The position numbers were made by a program, and so were the translations under genes. The notes beneath the pieces are model-generated. The model ran no database searches and had not been told where the DNA came from. It saw only the letters and a program-made list of their open reading frames with translations. A DNA stretch of 39,977 bases from Actinomycetota bacterium (GTDB lineage: Bacteria; Actinomycetota; Actinomycetes; Mycobacteriales; HKI-0501). Positions 583 through 18,520 of the stretch are shown here, in pieces. Positions within the stretch are counted from its first letter, which is position 1. Every line of letters begins with the position of its first letter. The stretch covers positions 1 through 39,977 of the forward strand of contig JAVEDU010000060.1 in assembly GCA_030840805.1 (NCBI GenBank), given 5' to 3'.

Positions 583-986
583 TGCCCCTCTTCGGTGCCA
601 TCGGCACCGCGGGGACCGGCGTCACGGTGTACCGCAAGTGGCTCGACGCGATCTCGGACAACATCGCCAACATCAACACGGTGCGGCCGACCAGCGGCCC
701 GGCGTTCCAGGAGCGATTCGTGATCGCCCAGTCGGTGACCAGCCCGGACGGTACGGGCGGCGTACAGGTCGGCGGCATCGCGCTCGGCAACGCCGCGGGC
801 CGCATGGTGTACGACCCCCAGCACCCGATGGCGGATGCGGGCGGTTACGTCCGGATGCCCGACATCGACCTGGGCAGCCAGATGACTCAAATGATCATGG
901 CGCAGCGCGGTTACGAGGCGAATCTCGCCGTCGTGGACCGGGCGAAGGACGCCTACCAGGCCGCGATCCAGCTCGGGAGAAACTGA
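582..986 (+). CDS. flgC: Flagellar basal-body proximal rod protein FlgC
   Basis: Second proximal-rod protein, partner of FlgB. The 134-residue product starts [13 protein letters not shown], carries the rod signature SDNIANINT near residues 25-33, and ends with the FlgC-type helix containing [17 protein letters not shown]. The length matches the family. The start ATG shares its A with the flgB stop (TGATG), implying translational coupling, and its stop overlaps the fliE start in the same way. No flgF or flgG (distal rod) follows anywhere in the window. Confidence 0.94.
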
Positions 987-1312
987 TGACCGCCCCCATC
1001 GAGGCCATCATGACCAGCGTTGCCCCCACCACCGCCGTCGCTCCCCTCGAGATGGGGGACGTCTCCGGCGCCGCCGCCGCGGCGGGCCCGAACGAGGCCT
1101 TCGCCGCCAAGCTCGGCGGTGCCCTGGAGAACCTCCAGGCCACCCAGTCGAAGGCGGACGACCTCGCCGTGCAGGCCGCCACCGGCACCCTGCAGGACGT
1201 CCACGACTACACGATCGCGTCCACCGAGGCCGCCCTCGCCACCCAGCTGACCGTCGCGCTGCGTAACAAGGCCGTCGAGGCGTTCAACGAGATCATGAGG
1301 ATGCCGGCCTGA
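986..1312 (+). CDS. fliE: Flagellar hook-basal body complex protein FliE
   Basis: Adaptor between the MS ring and the rod, and the first export substrate of the flagellar apparatus. The 108-residue product has a low-complexity Ala-rich N-terminus, then the family core with [13 protein letters not shown] (about residues 39-51) and the C-terminal block [19 protein letters not shown] typical of FliE. F39-x3-L43 fits the Fxxx-hydrophobic gate-recognition motif known for early export substrates. It overlaps flgC and fliF by one base each (TGATG junctions). Confidence 0.93.
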
Positions 1313-3926: not shown

Positions 3927-4626
3927 GTTCCGGCCGCTGGGCCTGGTGAGCACCGAGGAGCCCACGGTGCGGGCCGCGGGGTTCACCACGGACCTGCGCC
4001 GGTCCACCCCGAAGGCGCCCGTCGCCGTCCCGGTGGACGGCGGCTGGCGGTCCGCGACGTCCGGCGACCTGATCGACCAGGTCCGCGAGGCCGCCCGGTC
4101 CGAGGGCTATGCCGCCGGCTGGGGCGAGGGACGCCGGGTTGCCGGTGCCGAGGCCCGGGCCCGCGCGGCCGCCGTGTCCGCCGAGGCGGGCGCCGCGGAA
4201 GGCGCCCGGCAGAAGCGGCACGCGTCCGCGGTCGCCGCGCTGGCCGATGCGGCCACCGCCCTGGAGACCCGGGCGGTACCGGTGCTGGACGAGTTCTCCG
4301 ACGCGATCCTCGCCGCCGCGCTGGTGCTCGCCGAGGCCGTGCTCGGGCGGGAGCTCGCGCTCGGCGGCGACGGCGGTGCGATCGCGCTCCGCCGGGCGCT
4401 GGACCTCGCCCCGAAGCTGCGGCCCGTGACGGTCCGCCTCCACCCGGAGGACCTCGTCACGCTGTCGCTCACCGGCTCCACCGTCGAGATCGACGGCCGC
4501 ACGGTCACCCTGGTGCCGGACGCGTCCGTCGGCCGCGGCGGGGCGATCGCGGAATGCGACGCCACCCAGGTCGACGCGCGGCTCGGTGCCGCGCTCGACC
4601 GCGTCGGAACGGCGCTCCTCCCGTGA
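3910..4626 (+). CDS. fliH: Flagellar assembly protein FliH
   Basis: Stator-like regulator of the export ATPase FliI in the cytoplasm. The 238-residue product has a poorly conserved N-terminus, a central Ala/Arg-rich helical region (about residues 75-130) likely to be coiled coil, and a C-terminal FliH/YscL-type domain with DEFSDAILAAALVLAEAVLGREL. Identification rests on that domain and on position between fliG and fliI. The ATG lies inside fliG (17-base overlap) and the stop overlaps the fliI GTG by four bases. Confidence 0.85.
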   Translation: MSSSHEFRPLGLVSTEEPTVRAAGFTTDLRRSTPKAPVAVPVDGGWRSATSGDLIDQVREAARSEGYAAGWGEGRRVAGAEARARAAAVSAEAGAAEGARQKRHASAVAALADAATALETRAVPVLDEFSDAILAAALVLAEAVLGRELALGGDGGAIALRRALDLAPKLRPVTVRLHPEDLVTLSLTGSTVEIDGRTVTLVPDASVGRGGAIAECDATQVDARLGAALDRVGTALLP

Positions 4627-5969
4627 CGGCGACCTCTGTCCTGCCGCCGTCGCTGCGGGCGCGGGTCGACGCCGCCGTGGCCGCTGCCCGTCCGCGCGTC
4701 ACCGGCCGCGTCACCGGAGTCCTCGGACTCACCCTGACGGCGGCCGGCGCGGACGCGGCGGTCGGCGAGGTCGTCCTCATCGGTACGGGCGCCAGCGCCG
4801 TGGCGGCCGAGGTCGCGGCCATCGGCGCGAACGCCGCCGGTCAGCCGACCCTCACCTGCATGCCGCTCGGTCAGCTGCACGGTATCCGGGTCGGCGACCC
4901 GGTCTCGCCGACCGGTGGGCCGCTCCAGATCTCGGTGGGGGAGTCGCTGCGCGGCCGGGTCCTCAACGGGCTCGGCCAGCCGATCGACGGCGGCCCGCCG
5001 CTGACCGACTGCCAGCTCGTCGCGGTCGAGGCCCTCGCCCCGAACGCCCTGCTGCGCCGCCGGGTCGACACCGCGCTGCCGCTGGGGGTGCGGGCCCTGG
5101 ACACCCTCGTGCCGTGCGGGCGCGGTCAGCGCCTCGGCATCTTCGCCGGTTCGGGCGTCGGCAAGTCCTCGCTGCTGTCCATGATCGCCCGCGGTACCGA
5201 GGCGGAGATCTCCGTCATCGCGCTGGTCGGCGAGCGTGGCCGCGAGGTCCGGGAGTTCCTGGAGAACGACCTGGGCCCCGAGGGCCTCGCCCGCTCGGTC
5301 GTCGTCGTGGCGACCGGTGACGAGCCGCCCGCGGTCCGGATGCGTGCCGCGTTCGTCGCGACCCGGATCGCGGAGTGGTTCCGCGACGAGGGCGCCGATG
5401 TCCTGCTGATGATGGACAGCGTGACCCGCGTCGCCCTGGCGCAGCGCGAGATCGGCCTGTCCGCGGGGGAGCCGCCGGCGACGCGGGGCTACCCGCCCTC
5501 GGCGTTCGCACTGCTGCCGCGCCTGCTGGAGCGGGCCGGGCCCGGTCAGCACGGCACGATCACCGGGATCTACACGGTGCTCGTCGAGGGCGACGACCAC
5601 AACGAGCCCATCGGCGACACGGCCCGGTCCATCCTGGACGGCCACATCGTCCTGGACCGGAGGCTGGCCACCGCCGGCCACTTCCCGACCATCGACGTGC
5701 TCGACTCGATCTCCCGGGTCGCCGGCACGATCACCACGCCGGAGCAGCGCGCCATCGCGACCGAGCTGCGCCGGCTGCTCGCCGCTCGGCGGGACGCCAA
5801 GGAACTGATCGAGATCGGCGCGTACGTCCCGGGTACCAACCCCGAGGTCGACCGCGCCACCGCGCTCACCCCGGCGATCGACGCCTTCCTCCGGCAGGCG
5901 ATGGACGACCAGACCCCGGCCGCGGTGTCCTGGCAGGCTCTCGGCGCCCTGCTCAGAGGTGCGGCGTGA
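4623..5969 (+). CDS. fliI: Flagellum-specific export ATPase FliI
   Basis: Cytoplasmic F1-beta-like ATPase that energises and orders flagellar protein export. The 448-residue product contains the Walker A loop GSGVGKSS (about residues 176-183), the strand VALVGERGREVREF, the Walker B strand VLLMMDSVTR, and the family signature PPATRGYPPSAF before a C-terminal helical domain. The start GTG overlaps the fliH stop (GTGA). The length matches the family. Confidence 0.97.
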   Translation: MTATSVLPPSLRARVDAAVAAARPRVTGRVTGVLGLTLTAAGADAAVGEVVLIGTGASAVAAEVAAIGANAAGQPTLTCMPLGQLHGIRVGDPVSPTGGPLQISVGESLRGRVLNGLGQPIDGGPPLTDCQLVAVEALAPNALLRRRVDTALPLGVRALDTLVPCGRGQRLGIFAGSGVGKSSLLSMIARGTEAEISVIALVGERGREVREFLENDLGPEGLARSVVVVATGDEPPAVRMRAAFVATRIAEWFRDEGADVLLMMDSVTRVALAQREIGLSAGEPPATRGYPPSAFALLPRLLERAGPGQHGTITGIYTVLVEGDDHNEPIGDTARSILDGHIVLDRRLATAGHFPTIDVLDSISRVAGTITTPEQRAIATELRRLLAARRDAKELIEIGAYVPGTNPEVDRATALTPAIDAFLRQAMDDQTPAAVSWQALGALLRGAA

Positions 5970-6409
5970 AGCGCGTGTTCCGGCTGGCGTCCGTGCTCCG
6001 GGTCCGCCGCGTCCAGGAGGAGGTGGCCCGTGCCGACCTCCTGCAGGCCAACCGCGAGGTCGGCCGGGCGTGGACGGATGTCGAGCGTCGCGACGCGTAC
6101 CTCGAGTCGCGGCGGGGCGGGTTCACCACCGGTACGTCGGCGGCGTTCATCGGCTCGCTGACGGCCGGGATCGCCCGCGCCTCCGACCTGTCCGCGGCCC
6201 GCGCCGCGCACCAGCTCGCGCAGGACGCCGCGGCCGACCGGGCCTCCGGCTGGACCGAGGCGGCGGCCCGCGTGCAGGCCCTGGAGTCGCTGGAGGAGCG
6301 GCATCGTGCGGCGGTGCGGCTCGCCGACGAGGCGGCCGAGCAGCGTGCCGCGGACGACCGCTCGAGCGCGCAGTTCGTCGCGCGCCGGGCCGCGGAGGAG
6401 ACCGAATGA
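5966..6409 (+). CDS. fliJ: Flagellar export protein FliJ
   Basis: Central stalk-like coiled-coil protein of the export ATPase complex. The 147-residue product starts KRVFRLASVLRVRRVQEEVA, which matches the FliJ opening (FRL..VL..R...E), and is predicted almost wholly helical and rich in Ala, Arg and Glu. Sequence conservation in this family is low; the call also rests on length and on position immediately after fliI. It overlaps its neighbours on both sides by four bases (GTGA and ATGA). Confidence 0.85.
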   Translation: MKRVFRLASVLRVRRVQEEVARADLLQANREVGRAWTDVERRDAYLESRRGGFTTGTSAAFIGSLTAGIARASDLSAARAAHQLAQDAAADRASGWTEAAARVQALESLEERHRAAVRLADEAAEQRAADDRSSAQFVARRAAEETE

Positions 6410-7389
6410 CGATCACCGAGGTCCAGTCCCGGATCAGCGACATCCAGTCCCGCATCGCGACGCTCGCCGGGCCGGCGGTCCTCCGCGCGGCGGGGACCAC
6501 GAAGGCCACCGCCGCCGGCGGCACGGCGTTCGCCGATGCGCTGGCCGGTGCGACCACCGCCGGTGCGTCGGGCGTCACCGGCGACGCCGTGGTCGCGGCG
6601 GCGAAGAAGTACCTCGGCGTGCCGTACGTCTTCGGCGGGACCAACCCGAAGACGGGCCTGGACTGCTCGGGCCTCGTCCAGCGCGTCTACAAGGACCTCG
6701 GCATCGACCTGCCGCGCCTGGTCCGCCACCAGCGGAACGAGGGCACCGCGGTGCCCAACCTCGCGGCGGCGAAGCCCGGCGACCTGCTGATCTTCGAGGG
6801 GTACCAGCACATCGGCATCTACCTCGGCAACAACAAGATGATCCACGCCCCGCAGCCGGGCGAGAGCGTCAAGATCGGCAGCGTCTACGAGAAGCCGACG
6901 TCGATCCGGCGGATCGTCTCCGACGGCGCGGGCGGGGCCGGGTTCAACGCGGCCTCGGTGGCGCGGACGGCCACGGCGGCCGGTGCCAGGCTCTCCGGGG
7001 TGCCGTACGCCGCCCAGTTCACCGCCGCGGCGGAACGGCACGGTCTGCCGCCGGCGCTGCTCGCCGCGGTCGCGAAGGTCGAGTCGAACTACAACCCGAA
7101 CGCGGTCAGCCCGGCGGGTGCCCGCGGGCTGATGCAGTTCATGCCCGCGACCGCCCGCGACTACGGCATCAACCCGATGAACCCGACCCAGGCCATCGAG
7201 GGTGCCGCCCGCAAGCTCTCGGCGGACCTGAAGAGCTTCGGCTCCGTGTCGCTCGCGCTGGCCGCGTACAACGCGGGCCCGGGCGCGGTACGCCAGTACG
7301 GCGGGATCCCCCCGTATGCAGAGACCCAGGCCTACGTCCCGAAGGTGCTCGCCGCGATGACGCGGATCGAGCGAGGAGGAGCCAGATGA
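6406..7389 (+). CDS. Flagellar-operon peptidoglycan hydrolase, NlpC/P60 plus SLT
   Basis: Two-domain wall hydrolase probably opening the thick cell wall for the rod, a job done by FlgJ in proteobacteria. Of 327 residues, about 58-172 form an NlpC/P60 endopeptidase with Cys87 (DCSGL), His135 (HIGIY) and His147 as the likely catalytic triad. About 203-320 form a lytic transglycosylase domain with Glu226 (KVESNYNP), the GLMQFMPATA block and AAYNAGPGAV. There is no signal peptide or membrane segment; instead F42-x3-L46 in the N-terminal 50 residues resembles the export motif in FliE and FliK. It overlaps fliJ and fliK by four bases each, so it belongs to the flagellar operon. Confidence 0.88.
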   Translation: MTITEVQSRISDIQSRIATLAGPAVLRAAGTTKATAAGGTAFADALAGATTAGASGVTGDAVVAAAKKYLGVPYVFGGTNPKTGLDCSGLVQRVYKDLGIDLPRLVRHQRNEGTAVPNLAAAKPGDLLIFEGYQHIGIYLGNNKMIHAPQPGESVKIGSVYEKPTSIRRIVSDGAGGAGFNAASVARTATAAGARLSGVPYAAQFTAAAERHGLPPALLAAVAKVESNYNPNAVSPAGARGLMQFMPATARDYGINPMNPTQAIEGAARKLSADLKSFGSVSLALAAYNAGPGAVRQYGGIPPYAETQAYVPKVLAAMTRIERGGAR

Positions 7390-8837
7390 CCGTCCTGCCC
7401 CTGCCGGTGTCCCCGGCACCGGCCCCCGCCGCCTCGCGCGGTGGGTCCGCCGGGCGTTCCAGCGGCGGCGGCGACTTCGCCGCGGCGCTCGCTGCCGCCG
7501 GTGACGGCGGCGCCCGCCCCGAGGCCCGCCCCGAGGCCCGGCCCGACGGCCGCCGTGCGGACGACGTCGACTGGGCCGGCGACCCGGTCGCCACCGACGC
7601 CGCCGCGCGTCCCGACGACGGCGCGGAGGCCGGTGCCACCGACCCCGGTGCCGCCGACTCCGTCACCACCGATGCCGCTACCACCGATGCCGGCACCACC
7701 GACGACGGCGTCCCGGCGGAGACCACCGGCGCGCCCGCCGGTGCCCCGGTCGTGCCCCTGACGCCGGTCCTCGGCATCCCGGCCGCCGTGGTCCTCGCGG
7801 CCATGGCCCCGGCGGCGGCCGCCGCCGAGCCGGCGACGGTTCCGGTGGAGACCGCCGGCGCAGCCGCTCCGGTGGCCATCCCGGCCGCGACCCCGGCCGG
7901 CGTCCCGGCCGCGTCCGGACTCCCGGCAGCCGTCCCGGCCGCGTCCGGACTCCCGGCGGCCGTGGCCGCCACGGGCGGGAGCCGTCCCGGCACGCACGCC
8001 GGAGCGCCTGTCCCGGCCGCGCCGGGCACCGCCTCGGCGAACGCCGCGCCCGCGGGTCCGTCCGACGGCGCCGCGACCCCCACCGTGGACGGCCCCACCC
8101 CGGCGCCCGGCACCACGCCGAACGCCGATGCCGGACCGACCGTCCCGCGGCCCGTCGCCGCACCGGTACCCGGGCAGCCCGGCGACGCGGCGCTCGCCGT
8201 GACGATCCCGGTCGCCGACCGTGCCCCGGCCGTGGACGCGGCACCGGTGGCGCCCGCTGCACCCGCCGCGCAGTCCGCCGTGCCCGCGAACGGCGTACCG
8301 GCGAACGCGATGCCCGTGAACACCGTGGCGCCCGCTCCGGCGGCGGCCGCGGCGCAGTCCGCCGCGCCGCTCCCGGGCAGCCCGGCGGCGCTCGCCGCGC
8401 AGGTGGTCACCGGGGTCACGCCGCTCCGGCAGGGCCCGGACGGCACGCACCACCTGACCCTCCGGCTCGACCCGGGCCACCTCGGCCCGGTCACGGTCGT
8501 CGCCGAGGTCAAGAACGGGTCGATCCGGCTGGAGCTCACCGCCGTGGTGCCGGCCGCGCAGGAGGCGCTGCGGCAGGCCGCGGGCGACCTGCGGCGCGAC
8601 CTCGCGGACGCCGGCTTCGGCAGCGCGGCCGTCGACGTCCGCTCCGGTGACGCGGGTGCGCAGAACCCGAACGGCGGGCTCGGCGACCGATCCGACCGGC
8701 GATCGGCTCAAGGTCCGGGCGGTTACGCCGATTCAGGAGGTGGACCGGTGCGCGAACCCCGCGGGGACCGCGCCGCCGACCGCGAGGCGGTCCGGTACCG
8801 GACCGGCGGTGTACGGGCGGTGGACGTCCGGGTGTGA
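7386..8837 (+). CDS. fliK: Flagellar hook-length control protein FliK
   Basis: Exported molecular ruler that measures the hook and switches FlhB specificity. The 483-residue product has a long Pro/Ala/Thr-rich unstructured part (about residues 40-340) with internal repeats, and a C-terminal FliK domain with HLTLRLDPGHLGPVTVVAEV and a helix AQEALRQAAGDLRRDLADAGF (about 355-415). F31-x3-L35 near the start fits the export gate-recognition motif. After the conserved domain comes a hydrophilic tail of about 65 residues whose DNA contains a candidate promoter for flgD. The ATG overlaps the upstream hydrolase stop (ATGA). Confidence 0.9.
   Translation: MTVLPLPVSPAPAPAASRGGSAGRSSGGGDFAAALAAAGDGGARPEARPEARPDGRRADDVDWAGDPVATDAAARPDDGAEAGATDPGAADSVTTDAATTDAGTTDDGVPAETTGAPAGAPVVPLTPVLGIPAAVVLAAMAPAAAAAEPATVPVETAGAAAPVAIPAATPAGVPAASGLPAAVPAASGLPAAVAATGGSRPGTHAGAPVPAAPGTASANAAPAGPSDGAATPTVDGPTPAPGTTPNADAGPTVPRPVAAPVPGQPGDAALAVTIPVADRAPAVDAAPVAPAAPAAQSAVPANGVPANAMPVNTVAPAPAAAAAQSAAPLPGSPAALAAQVVTGVTPLRQGPDGTHHLTLRLDPGHLGPVTVVAEVKNGSIRLELTAVVPAAQEALRQAAGDLRRDLADAGFGSAAVDVRSGDAGAQNPNGGLGDRSDRRSAQGPGGYADSGGGPVREPRGDRAADREAVRYRTGGVRAVDVRV
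7902..7961 (+). repeat. 30-base tandem duplication in fliK
   Basis: Two adjacent 30-base units (7902-7931 and 7932-7961) differ at one base and encode VPAASGLPAA twice in frame. They lie in the low-complexity ruler region of FliK, where length change would be expected to alter hook length. Confidence 0.9.
8707..8732 (+). promoter_or_regulatory. Putative sigma-28-type promoter of flgD-flgE
   Basis: CTCA at 8707-8710 and GCCGAT at 8727-8732 are 16 bases apart. This is the best match among five similar sites in the window and lies inside the 3' end of fliK, downstream of its conserved domain. Transcription would start near 8740, about 145 bases before flgD. An AGGAGG at 8735-8740 and an in-frame GTG at 8748 lie at the start of that leader. 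Confidence 0.6.
8788..8805. repeat. 18-base perfect palindrome near the fliK 3' end
   Basis: Bases 8788-8796 are the exact reverse complement of 8797-8805, centred on GGTACC. It sits in the predicted flgD leader between the candidate promoter and the flgD start, so it could be a leader hairpin or a protein-binding site. In this GC-rich DNA it may also be chance. Confidence 0.4.
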
Positions 8838-8883: not shown

Positions 8884-9318
8884 ATGACCACGCCGATCCA
8901 CACCCCGGTGACCACGCCGATCTCCCAGATCGGCGCCAACACCACCGCCAGCCCGACCCGCAGCGACCAGCTCGACAAGGACACGTTCCTCAAGCTGCTC
9001 GTCGCCCAGCTGAAGTACCAGGACCCGTCGAACCCGGCGGACAGCACGGCGTTCCTGGCGCAGACCGCGCAGTTCACGCAGGTCGAGCGTCTGAACGAAC
9101 TGAAGACCGTGAGCAGCGACCAACTGGTCGCGCAGATGATGCTCTCGGCGAGCGGGATGGTCGGCAAGACCATCACCTTCGCCGGACCGGACGGCAAGGA
9201 CGTCTCCGGTGTCGTCACCTCGGCTCACTTCAACGGCAGCGCCCCGACCCTTCGGGTGGGCGACAAGGATGTCCCGCTGCCGGCGGTCAAGGAAGTCAAG
9301 GCCGCCGCCGCCGGATGA
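8884..9318 (+). CDS. flgD: Flagellar hook cap / hook assembly protein FlgD
   Basis: Scaffold that caps the growing hook and lets FlgE polymerise. The 144-residue product has a short Thr/Pro-rich head and then the conserved FlgD core DKDTFLKLLVAQLKYQDPSNP (about residues 31-51), followed by EFLAQ-type and MLSASGMVGKTI segments. It is short compared with Gram-negative FlgD and seems to lack most of the C-terminal Tudor/FnIII part. AAGGAG at 8872-8877 precedes the ATG. The 46-base gap after fliK and a candidate promoter inside fliK suggest it can be transcribed separately with flgE. Confidence 0.93.
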   Translation: MTTPIHTPVTTPISQIGANTTASPTRSDQLDKDTFLKLLVAQLKYQDPSNPADSTAFLAQTAQFTQVERLNELKTVSSDQLVAQMMLSASGMVGKTITFAGPDGKDVSGVVTSAHFNGSAPTLRVGDKDVPLPAVKEVKAAAAG

Positions 9319-9362: not shown

Positions 9363-10541
9363 ATGCTCCGCTCGCTCTTCGCCGGTATCAGCGGCCTCCG
9401 CGCCCACCAGACGATGATGGACGTGACCGGTAACAACATCGCGAACGTCAACACGGCCGGCTACAAGGCCTCGCAGACCGTCTTCCAGGACACCCTCAGC
9501 CAGATGATCCAGGGCGCCGGTGCGCCGCAGGGCAACGCCGGTGGTACCAACCCGGCCCAGGTCGGCCTCGGCGTCCGCGTCGGCGGCATCTTCACGAACT
9601 TCGGTCAGGGCTCGGCCCAGGCGACCGGCCGCAGCACCGACCTGATGATCCAGGGCGACGGGTTCTTCGTGGTCCGCAAGGACGGCCAGGACCTGTACAC
9701 CCGCGCCGGTGCCTTCAACTTCGACAGCCTCGGCCAGCTGGTCAGCCCCGACGGTGCCAAGGTGATGGGCTGGGGCGCCGTGAACGGCGCCATCAACACC
9801 AACGCCGCCGCCGCGCCGCTGTCGCTGCCGGTCGGCACCATGCTGCCCCCCGCCGCGACCGGGAACGTCACCGTCGGCGGGAACCTGCCCGGCGACTCGA
9901 CGTCCACCACCCCGATCACCACGTCGATCACGGTGTACGACGCGCAGGGCAACCCGATCGCGCTGAAGACCTCCTTCCTCAAGACGTCGCCGACGACCTG
10001 GGACGTCACGATGACCGACGGCACCACCACCGTCGGCCCGACCCCGCTGACGTTCAACGCGACCGGCACGGCCCCGACCCCGAGCTCGATGGCCTTCGGT
10101 GCCATCAACGTCGCCCTGAGCGGCATCACCAACTACGCCGGGGTGTCGACCGTCTCCGCGCTGAACCAGGACGGCTCGGCCGTCGGCTCGCTCCAGGCGT
10201 TCAGCATCTCGCCGGACGGCACGCTGGTCGGCGTGTTCTCGAACGGACTCCGGCAGGATCTGGGCCGGATCGCGATGGCGAGCTTCAACAACCCGCCCGG
10301 CCTGGAGAAGGTCGGCAACACGAACTTCCGCGCGACCGTCAACTCCGGCGTGGCGCAGCTCGGCACCGCCGGTGCCGGCGGCCGTGGTGCCCTCGCCGGC
10401 GGTTCGCTCGAGATGTCGAACGTCGACCTCGCGCAGGAGTTCACCAACCTGATCGTGGCCCAGCGTGGCTTCCAGGCGAACTCGAAGGTCATCACGGCCT
10501 CCGACGAGATCCTGCAGGACCTGGTCAACCTCAAGCGCTAG
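9363..10541 (+). CDS. flgE: Flagellar hook protein FlgE
   Basis: Subunit of the hook, the universal joint outside the cell. The 392-residue product begins MLRSLFAGISGLRAHQTMMD, has the rod/hook signature GNNIANVNTAGYKASQ (about residues 22-37), a FlgE D1/D2 region with DLMIQGDGFFVV, and the C-terminal block EFTNLIVAQRGFQANSKVI. Length and both ends fit FlgE and not FlgF/FlgG. A GAAGGGA ribosome site lies just upstream. It is the last gene before a strong hairpin at 10555-10587. Confidence 0.95.
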   Translation: MLRSLFAGISGLRAHQTMMDVTGNNIANVNTAGYKASQTVFQDTLSQMIQGAGAPQGNAGGTNPAQVGLGVRVGGIFTNFGQGSAQATGRSTDLMIQGDGFFVVRKDGQDLYTRAGAFNFDSLGQLVSPDGAKVMGWGAVNGAINTNAAAAPLSLPVGTMLPPAATGNVTVGGNLPGDSTSTTPITTSITVYDAQGNPIALKTSFLKTSPTTWDVTMTDGTTTVGPTPLTFNATGTAPTPSSMAFGAINVALSGITNYAGVSTVSALNQDGSAVGSLQAFSISPDGTLVGVFSNGLRQDLGRIAMASFNNPPGLEKVGNTNFRATVNSGVAQLGTAGAGGRGALAGGSLEMSNVDLAQEFTNLIVAQRGFQANSKVITASDEILQDLVNLKR

Positions 10542-16652: not shown

Positions 16653-17417
16653 GTGGAGATCTCGGTCCCGATCGGCACGTTCGTGGCGTTCCTGCTCGCC
16701 ACGGTGCGGTCCGCGGCCTGGCTCGCGATCTCCCCGCCGTTCTCGTCGCGGGTGATCCCACCGCGCGTCAAGGCCCTGCTGGCCGCGGGGCTCGCGTTGG
16801 TCGTCACGCCGCGCATCGCCGCCACCGCGCCGGCGCTGGAGGTCGGGCCGCTCTTGGGTGCGATCCTCCAGCAGGTCGCGATCGGGGTGGCACTCGGCTT
16901 CCTCACGGCACTCGTGTTCTCCGCCATCCAGGCGGCCGGCGACCTGATCGACCTGTTCGGCGGGTTCTCGCTGGCGTTCGCGTTCGACCCGCTGATGCAG
17001 ACCGGCAACTCGGTGTTCGGCAAGATCTACGGCCTGCTGGCGACGACGCTGCTGTTCGCGTCCGGCGGGCACCTGCTGATCATCCGGGGCTTCCTCGCGA
17101 CCTACGACGTGCTGCCGCTGGACGCGTCGCTGTCCATGGGGCGGCTCGGTGACCTGCTGACCGAGGGGGTCGTGCAGATGTTCCTGTCCGCGCTGCAGAT
17201 CGCCGGGCCGCTGATCGCGGTGCTGTTCCTCGCCGACGTCGGGCTCGGTCTGCTGACCCGGGTGGCGCCGGCGCTCAACGCGTTCAGCCTCGGGTTCCCG
17301 GTGAAGATCATGCTGACCCTGATCCTGGTCGGCATGGCGTTCCCGCTCCTGCCCGTCGCCGTGGACGAGCTCACCAAGCGGTCGCTGTACCTCATGGCGC
17401 GGCTGGTGGGCGCATGA
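16653..17417 (+). CDS. fliR: Flagellar export gate protein FliR
   Basis: Gate subunit completing the FliPQR core. The 254-residue product has about six hydrophobic helices and conserved FliR segments: FSSRVIPPRVKALLAAGLAL, LGFLTALVFSAIQAAGDLID, and FLADVGLGLLTRVAPALNAF. The GTG start lies four bases after the fliQ stop. The stop overlaps the flhB ATG by four bases, as in many flagellar operons where the two are coupled or even fused. Confidence 0.95.
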   Translation: MEISVPIGTFVAFLLATVRSAAWLAISPPFSSRVIPPRVKALLAAGLALVVTPRIAATAPALEVGPLLGAILQQVAIGVALGFLTALVFSAIQAAGDLIDLFGGFSLAFAFDPLMQTGNSVFGKIYGLLATTLLFASGGHLLIIRGFLATYDVLPLDASLSMGRLGDLLTEGVVQMFLSALQIAGPLIAVLFLADVGLGLLTRVAPALNAFSLGFPVKIMLTLILVGMAFPLLPVAVDELTKRSLYLMARLVGA

Positions 17418-18520
17418 GCGGCGGGGGAGGGGGCGGCGAGAAGACCGAGAAGCCCACTCCGAAGAAGCTCGCGGACGCCCGCAAGGAAGGGCAGATCGGC
17501 AAGACCCCCGACCTCGGGGCCTGGGCCATGGTGCTGGGCGCCACGTTCGTGCTGCCGATGGTCATCTCGGGCACGGGCAGCGCCGCCACCGACCTGCTGA
17601 TGCAGGTAGGCGGGGTGATCCAGGACCCCGACCCGGCGAAGACCACCCATCTGCTCGGCACCGGGCTGAAGGCAGGCGCGTTCGCCCTCGCGCCGCTCGC
17701 GGCGGTGACGGTGCTCGTCGCGATCGCCGGTGCCGCCGTGCAGGGCGGGCTCCACCCCGCCACGAAGCTGCTCAAGCCCCAGCTCAAGCGGCTCAACCCG
17801 TGGCCGGGACTCAAGCGCAACTTCGGCCCGCACGGTGCGTGGGAGGCCCTGAAGACGACGATCAAGACGGCCGCGCTCGGGGTGGTGCTGTACGCGGTGA
17901 TCCAGACGCTCACCCCCGCGCTGCTCACCGCGGGTGCGATGCCGCTGGGCAGCACCGTTGCGTCGGCGGCCAACGCCGCCCTGACGCTGATCCGGCTCGC
18001 CTGCCTGACCGGCCTGATCATGGCCGCCGCGGACTACGTGATGGTGAAGCGGCGTTCCAACAAGCAGCTCAAGATGAGCCACCACGAGATCAAGCAGGAG
18101 CACAAGCAGTCCGAGGGTGACCCGCAGCTCAAGGGCGCGATCCGCTCCCGGCAGCTCGCGATGAGCCGCAACCGGATGATGACCGATGTCGCCACCGCCG
18201 ACGTGGTGATGGTGAACCCGACGCACGTCGCCGTGGCGCTGCGCTACGACCCGGCCAAGGGCGCCCCGCGGGTGGTCGCGAAGGGCGCCGGCCCGATCGC
18301 CGAGAAGATCCGGGAGATCGCCGACGAGAAGCGGGTGCCGATGGTGTCCGACATCCCGCTGGCCCGCGCGCTGTACAAGTCGTGCGAGGTGGGGCAGGAG
18401 GTGCCCCCCGAGATGTTCACGGCGGTGGCGACCGTGCTCGCGTTCGTGATGGCGCTGAAGTCGAAGGGCTCGGCGGCGGGCATGCACCGCGTACCGCAGC
18501 GGCCCGTGATCGCCTTCTAG
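17414..18520 (+). CDS. flhB: Flagellar export substrate-specificity switch protein FlhB
   Basis: Inner-membrane export protein whose cytoplasmic domain autocleaves to change from rod/hook to filament substrates. The 368-residue product begins with the family head EKTEKPTPKKLADARKEGQI, has four membrane segments, the conserved linker SNKQLKMSHHEIKQEHKQSEG, and the autocleavage site NPTH at residues 268-271 followed by VAVALRYD. It is the last gene before a strong hairpin. All residues needed for cleavage appear intact. Confidence 0.97.
   Translation: MSGGGGGGEKTEKPTPKKLADARKEGQIGKTPDLGAWAMVLGATFVLPMVISGTGSAATDLLMQVGGVIQDPDPAKTTHLLGTGLKAGAFALAPLAAVTVLVAIAGAAVQGGLHPATKLLKPQLKRLNPWPGLKRNFGPHGAWEALKTTIKTAALGVVLYAVIQTLTPALLTAGAMPLGSTVASAANAALTLIRLACLTGLIMAAADYVMVKRRSNKQLKMSHHEIKQEHKQSEGDPQLKGAIRSRQLAMSRNRMMTDVATADVVMVNPTHVAVALRYDPAKGAPRVVAKGAGPIAEKIREIADEKRVPMVSDIPLARALYKSCEVGQEVPPEMFTAVATVLAFVMALKSKGSAAGMHRVPQRPVIAF

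Follow-up and report, generated by a model that had tools for sequence, protein, structure and literature searches.

A gene slot downstream of fliI in flagellated Actinomycetota encodes wall-cutting enzymes whose catalytic part varies and whose N-terminus usually keeps a non-polar helix and an Fxxx-hydrophobic motif like that of early flagellar export substrates. One such enzyme, an NlpC/P60-SLT hydrolase, is encoded in the window (the whole stretch of 39,977 nucleotides that was analysed), and the placement and conservation of its N-terminal motif make it probable that the flagellar type III export gate handles this protein as an early substrate and that it cuts the wall at the tip of the rod. 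There is also a reasonable case for a broader reading, in which a portable type III address, the helix plus FxxxL, sends interchangeable wall-cutting domains through the channel in flagellated Actinomycetota; the slot would then be a wall drill acting only where the rod emerges, with a cutting head that has been changed at least 12 times. The original prediction concerned this one protein. Broadened here to a phylum-wide gene slot, its interpretation is largely supported at the level of sequence: the lack of a Sec-like N-terminus, the conserved motif and the sharing of that motif with the FliK slot stand, and double activity, full replacement of FlgJ and a universal phenylalanine do not.

The window hydrolase and its flagellar neighbours

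The hydrolase gene sits between fliJ and fliK and overlaps both, its ATG with the fliJ stop codon and its own stop codon with the fliK ATG at 7386 (Table 1). The export gate genes fliP, fliR, flhB and flhA all lie within the same window. The names given to the window's FlgB, FlgC, FliF, FliG, FliH, FliM, FliL, MotA and MotB come from inspection and gene order, without profile search.

Table 1. Positions in the window of the hydrolase gene, its parts and the flagellar genes discussed in the text
Feature	Position	Strand	Basis
Ribosome-binding-site-like GGAGGAG ahead of the hydrolase ATG	6394..6400	+	Role inferred from sequence
Flagellar-cluster peptidoglycan hydrolase, NlpC/P60 + SLT, 327 aa	6406..7389	+	ORF, Pfam, alignment
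N-terminal helix, residues 3-20, conserved RIxxIQ pattern	6412..6465	+	AlphaFold2 helix, pLDDT about 80
F42-A-D-A-L46, candidate gate recognition motif, in predicted short helix 39-49 (low confidence)	6529..6543	+	Sequence, AlphaFold2
NlpC/P60 domain, residues 71-164; C87 at 6664-6666, H135 at 6808-6810	6616..6897	+	NLPC_P60, E 1.7e-24, over cut-off
SLT domain, residues 205-302; E226 at 7081-7083	7018..7311	+	PF01464, E 4.3e-27, over cut-off
fliJ, overlaps hydrolase start	5966..6409	+	PF02050 and TIGR02473, over cut-off
fliK; DFAAAL, F31-L35 at 7476-7490	7386..8837	+	PF02120; motif
fliE; AFAAKL, F39-L43 at 1100-1114	986..1312	+	PF02049 (query without first five residues); motif
flgD; FLKLL, F35-L39 at 8986-9000	8884..9318	+	PF03963; motif
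flgE; FQDTL, F41-L45 at 9483-9497	9363..10541	+	PF07559 and PF06429; motif
flhB, presumed docking gate, A,P,A,L pocket	17414..18520	+	PF01312; alignment to 6s3l

Both catalytic domains had been described as intact, and this is borne out by the Pfam matches and by C87, H135 and E226, presumably the catalytic residues as in other NlpC/P60 and SLT enzymes, which are invariant in an alignment of 38 two-domain proteins that includes the window protein. In the AlphaFold2 model (mean pLDDT 86.5, pTM 0.49) residues 3-20 form the N-terminal helix. The linker is mostly disordered, and the motif lies in a short helix at 39-49 of low confidence. Both catalytic domains are modelled with confidence, the NlpC domain over residues 59 to 170 and the SLT domain over residues 182 to 322, approximately. 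Comparison with the PDB groups these domains with NlpC/P60 domains such as that of SagA (6b8c) and with transglycosylases such as Slt and MltD. A Pfam scan at E<=0.1 returned neither a glucosaminidase-type domain nor a match to PF10135 (FlgJ rod-binding) in the hydrolase, and the BB0259 model NF047373 matches it at 65 bits, under its cut-off of 234.

Rod and hook subunits are reported to carry the Fxxx-hydrophobic pattern as their gate recognition motif, required for binding to FlhB (PMC4183434, PMC10965912). The three instances first reported in the window, AFADAL in the hydrolase (F42, L46), DFAAAL in FliK (F31, L35) and AFAAKL in FliE (F39, L43), were all confirmed. A single match says little, since F-x3-[LIVMF] also occurs within residues 1-70 of the window's FliF, FliG, FliH, FliJ, FliN, MotA and MotB, several of which are not secreted. 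Seven window proteins are presumed early substrates, and in all of them the motif F falls at residue 31-42 (FlgB 42, FlgC 42, FliE 39, hydrolase 42, FliK 31, FlgD 35, FlgE 41); it is this position, together with conservation among homologues, rather than mere occurrence, that goes beyond chance. The Salmonella motifs are placed at 36-40 in FlgD and, from a deletion construct, at 39-43 in FlgE (PMC8983047). The same source describes non-polar residues near the N-terminus, distant from the downstream motif, as a feature of early substrates. I3, V6 and I10 of the hydrolase, upstream of the motif at 42, would fit this, and so would residues of most N-termini.

The gene slot and its N-terminal module

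Loci were drawn from a protein search in named genomes, in which the best 80 of 316 confirmed stretches were kept, and from a survey that used FliI as query so that loci were not chosen by the hydrolase itself. FliI matched in 49 of 394 genomes of a class sample and in 56 of 396 of a phylum sample, four genomes being common to both, and the region downstream of fliI was taken from 100 genomes with the window's own left out. The first homologues supplied the NlpC and SLT profiles with which slot ORFs were detected. An NlpC and/or SLT ORF followed fliI in 83 of the 100 regions, one of these ORFs (in L182) being a 64-residue SLT fragment. No NlpC or SLT ORF was found after fliI in the other 17, of which three end within 1 kb of fliI; in other empty regions fliJ seems, as read from translations, to be followed directly by fliK or a FliL-like gene.

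Where the initial stretch did not reach flgD (L164, L167, L172 and L175), extended regions were then examined. Two genomes with a displaced fliI, G595 and G695, encode an SLT enzyme upstream of flgD in which the helix is present and the motif reads FATML and FAQQL, respectively; G695 has no match to PF10135. The G695 enzyme is identical with that of a named locus (L043); the G595 enzyme (L261:4961-5917), in a genome where fliI is far from flgD, keeps the helix with FATML at F30, and was found later and excluded from all motif counts. The extended region of G576 holds no such enzyme up to flgD, and the slot of G662 cannot be judged, its contig breaking off some 570 bases before flgD. The enzyme is present in at least 85 of the 100 surveyed genomes, common rather than universal given that 17 regions showed no hydrolase at first and two of these later proved to be occupied. 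Five loci from flagellated members of the same class (L114, L145, L153, L156 and L157) have no NlpC or SLT ORF between fliI and flgD.

Within one genus (code g158), the full gene is present in L183 and L187, the slot is empty in L191, and the fragment in L182 lies at 4324-4515 (1747-1938 after turning the locus), an apparent case of recent decay or loss of the slot gene. In Bacillota, one Sporomusaceae locus (L075) has the same slot arrangement. An SLT protein of Ammonifex sp., also Bacillota (L041:3860-4543), has no Sec-like N-terminus and no recognised flagellar genes around it in a locus of 8.4 kb, and carries SDFAAALSSAL near its start, much like the hydrolase motif.

In all, 115 proteins with a usable start were obtained from the named loci (33 used), the FliI survey and the window; three with doubtful N-termini were dropped, and 99 of the remaining 112 are non-redundant. 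The absence of a signal peptide, first noted for the window protein, holds for its homologues at the same locus as far as hydropathy shows: a Sec-like N-terminus, defined as a 12-residue mean hydropathy of at least 2.0 within the first 45 residues, was found in none of the 99 proteins, the window protein included, and Sec export of the slot enzyme is therefore not supported by this rule. Among controls the threshold was exceeded by 12 of 30 other NlpC/P60 ORFs and by 26 of 48 further SLT ORFs; the rule is a crude one, as 18 of the 30 NlpC controls also fall below it, and the start sites of the controls are uncertain. The NlpC control rows include, at least twice, the same ORF from two overlapping loci, and the SLT controls include a slot locus lacking a usable start (L033) and an ORF beside flagellar rod/hook genes (L050).

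The motif F-x3-[LIVMF], lying between the N-terminal helix and the catalytic part in a linker whose sequence otherwise varies, is present in 89 of the 99 slot proteins. Shuffling the linkers gave it in a mean of 16.1 +/- 3.5 proteins, with a maximum of 31 in 2000 shuffles, and shuffling with the F positions held gave a mean of 17.2 and a maximum of 29. Taken alone, the FliI survey has the motif in 65 of 71 proteins (null mean 12.5, maximum 23), and the named loci with the window have it in 24 of 28 (null mean 3.7, maximum 10). When all 136 linker F residues are considered, a hydrophobic residue stands at +4 for 72% of them versus a background of 14%, with a weak rise at +8 (25%) and values of 4-19% at other offsets. 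On the evidence of the shuffles and this offset test, a chance origin of the motif was rejected. In the first motif of each of the 89 proteins, +4 is L in 80, and alanine stands at +1 in 57 and at +7 in 60, a pattern in keeping with a short amphipathic helix; the F of this motif lies at a median position of 38 (interquartile range 32-46). The gene after the hydrolase, mostly fliK by its place and FliL-like instead in some lineages, holds the motif at residues 15-60 in 79 of 91 cases (null mean 14.5, maximum 25). Comparable linkers of other NlpC/P60 ORFs, by way of control, hold it in 5 of 26. A permissive form of the helix pattern (RIxxIQ) occurs in 92 of these 99 sequences, a count obtained with a start picker biased towards that pattern.

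Comparison of the N-termini upholds conservation of the motif across the phylum in most slot proteins and not of F itself, which is W in Geodermatophilaceae. Ten of the 99 proteins lack the motif by the rule used. One (L194) has FSSAL ahead of the counted stretch, and four others (L155, L170, L200 and L210) are without it. The remaining five belong to a clade of Geodermatophilaceae and kin (L013-L019 and L132, one member placed there by the FliI tree) that has W instead of F and A at +4, and in which the hydrolase keeps its N-terminal helix and the FliK-slot gene keeps its F. In Salmonella, FlgB with F45W is described as weakly exported with wild-type FlhB and better exported with the altered pockets of suppressor mutants (PMC9307174). 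At the positions of Salmonella A286, P287, A341 and L344, the window's FlhB has A, P, A and L in the alignment to 6s3l, and 24 of 26 other FlhB sequences are identical at all four; the exceptions are a sequence with T at 286 and another that is truncated in the alignment. A compensating change in the FlhB pocket was rejected as the explanation of the F to W exchange, A,P,A,L being found in all six W-clade genomes examined. With the pocket unchanged, the gate offers no explanation of the W variants.

Changes of the catalytic part

The enzymes behind this N-terminus are of several kinds. Double activity, as originally proposed, is not general: among the 112 proteins the order NlpC+SLT occurs in 50 and its reverse, SLT+NlpC, in 5, and the rest are single-domain enzymes (SLT in 32, NlpC in 25). 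The motif is found with every architecture, in 41 of 46 non-redundant proteins with NlpC+SLT, 27 of 30 with SLT, 18 of 19 with NlpC and 3 of 4 with SLT+NlpC. Mapped on a 94-row FliI tree, a minimum of 12 changes is required for the architecture, versus 5 for presence of the motif; both counts are approximate because the tree comes from a quick, short search and 23 of its 91 inner branches are weak. As judged by these comparisons, the putative address is kept across Actinomycetota while the catalytic part is repeatedly lost, gained and reordered.

Export through the flagellar gate and its alternatives

The first 50 or so residues of the slot enzyme would constitute a two-part address, made of a non-polar N-terminal helix, a disordered linker and the Fxxx-hydrophobic motif. 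The motif would dock in the hydrophobic pocket of FlhB and bring the unfolded hydrolase to the gate, and the N-terminal signal would then help the gate to open, as has been proposed for FlgD (PMC8983047). Still unfolded, the enzyme would travel along the channel of the elongating rod and refold outside at the tip, where the SLT domain would cut glycan strands and the NlpC/P60 domain stem peptides, and this local cutting would let the rod and hook pass the thick wall. We infer the docking, the export through the channel, the action at the rod tip and a need for the enzyme in motility. In a monoderm, where no second membrane could keep a Sec-exported enzyme close to the basal body, passage along the rod would presumably confine the activity.

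The N-terminal module could instead serve to dock the enzyme on a flagellar protein (a rod subunit, FlgD, FliK or FliJ), with exit by some other non-classical route or by local leakage. Such an arrangement would account for the helix, whose conservation is not explained by a gate motif alone and which the W variants keep. We nevertheless regard it as unlikely, because the motif is the same as in the FliK-slot gene and other early substrates and stands at a similar position, and because, with no Sec-like N-terminus among the slot proteins, their sequences, judged by hydropathy only, give no sign of another export route.

A further proposal is that the hydrolase also acts as the rod cap, its N-terminal helices replacing the rod-binding domain of FlgJ so that it would be a full FlgJ replacement. 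The distribution of FlgJ speaks for it. The window's own genome is among the 92 of 101 flagellated genomes (60 + 41) that have no match to PF10135 at E<=0.001; a survey of the phylum likewise describes FlgF, FlgG and FlgJ as missing from later actinobacterial classes (PMC10746217). Nine genomes match PF10135, seven of them over the cut-off, and two of the nine, G467 (L165) and G576 (L167 with L248), which share a family code, have no NlpC or SLT ORF between fliI and flgD. A third is G662, the genome whose contig ends short of flgD. Six others (G398, G665, G586, G672, G439 and G595), however, carry a PF10135 match together with a slot hydrolase, although in two of the six the match is below the cut-off and in G665 (L198) the N-terminus of the slot enzyme is too doubtful to use. 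FlgJ and the slot hydrolase are therefore not mutually exclusive, and the enzyme is probably not a replacement of the whole of FlgJ. Moreover, with only some 50 residues, largely disordered in the model, and no PF10135 match, the N-terminal module makes a rod-cap function quite improbable. Of the FlgJ replacement first envisaged, only the wall-cutting half can be maintained, and on present sequence comparisons the slot enzyme is best seen as the wall-cutting partner kept in lineages where FlgJ was lost, a view that agrees with the published absence of FlgF, FlgG and FlgJ from later classes.

That a wall hydrolase placed in the cluster merely happens to hold FxxxL in a low-complexity linker is very improbable. 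Although several non-secreted window proteins also contain F-x3-hydrophobic, the slot proteins have it in 89 of 99 cases against a shuffled mean of 16, with an excess at +4, and do so across a catalytic part that changed a minimum of 12 times.

Several known proteins resemble the slot hydrolase in part. FlgJ of beta/gamma-proteobacteria is exported by the flagellar route. It is likewise a wall-cutting enzyme that lets the rod through the wall (PMC4183434, PMC8517470), but it consists of a rod-cap part and a glucosaminidase-type part, whereas the hydrolase has neither and carries NlpC/P60 and/or SLT domains instead. SltF of Rhodobacter sphaeroides is also an SLT-type flagellar lytic transglycosylase, but it is described as having a signal sequence, using the SecA pathway and working with FlgJ (PMC7277832), unlike the slot hydrolase with its N-terminus that is not Sec-like. 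BB0259 of Borrelia burgdorferi, again an SLT enzyme and one that the hook requires to get through the wall, differs in needing a Sec/lipobox signal and in having no NlpC among its described domains (PMC8517470). FliK and FlgD of the same cluster share the motif at a similar distance from the N-terminus, but as ruler and hook cap they are not enzymes. CwlQ of Bacillus subtilis was reportedly found by Sanchez in 2021 to be required for swarming and not for flagellar assembly. It resembles the slot enzyme as a member of the SLT family linked to motility (PMC10653849, PMC12153297).

The passage of a short rod through a thick Gram-positive wall has been named, in a survey of actinobacterial flagella, as a question for the future (PMC10746217), and the B. 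subtilis rod is inferred to find holes rather than make them, a dedicated flagellar wall enzyme being seemingly absent (PMC12153297). We found no description of the slot protein in the literature searched. The words hydrolase, transglycosylase and NlpC are absent from the main text of PMC10746217, and CwlQ is among its 50 queries; SLT-bearing slot members may have been scored as CwlQ in that survey. If the proposed export holds, the motif-bearing hydrolase, present in most of the flagellated actinobacteria surveyed, would give a direct and testable answer to wall crossing for the phylum, and the slot enzymes would supply a set of natural passengers for work on type III export.

PHROGs phage tail and lysis families match the window protein in one of its catalytic domains or in both (phrog_14342, for example, over residues 98-313), and the NlpC/SLT pair may occur in phage tail lysins too.
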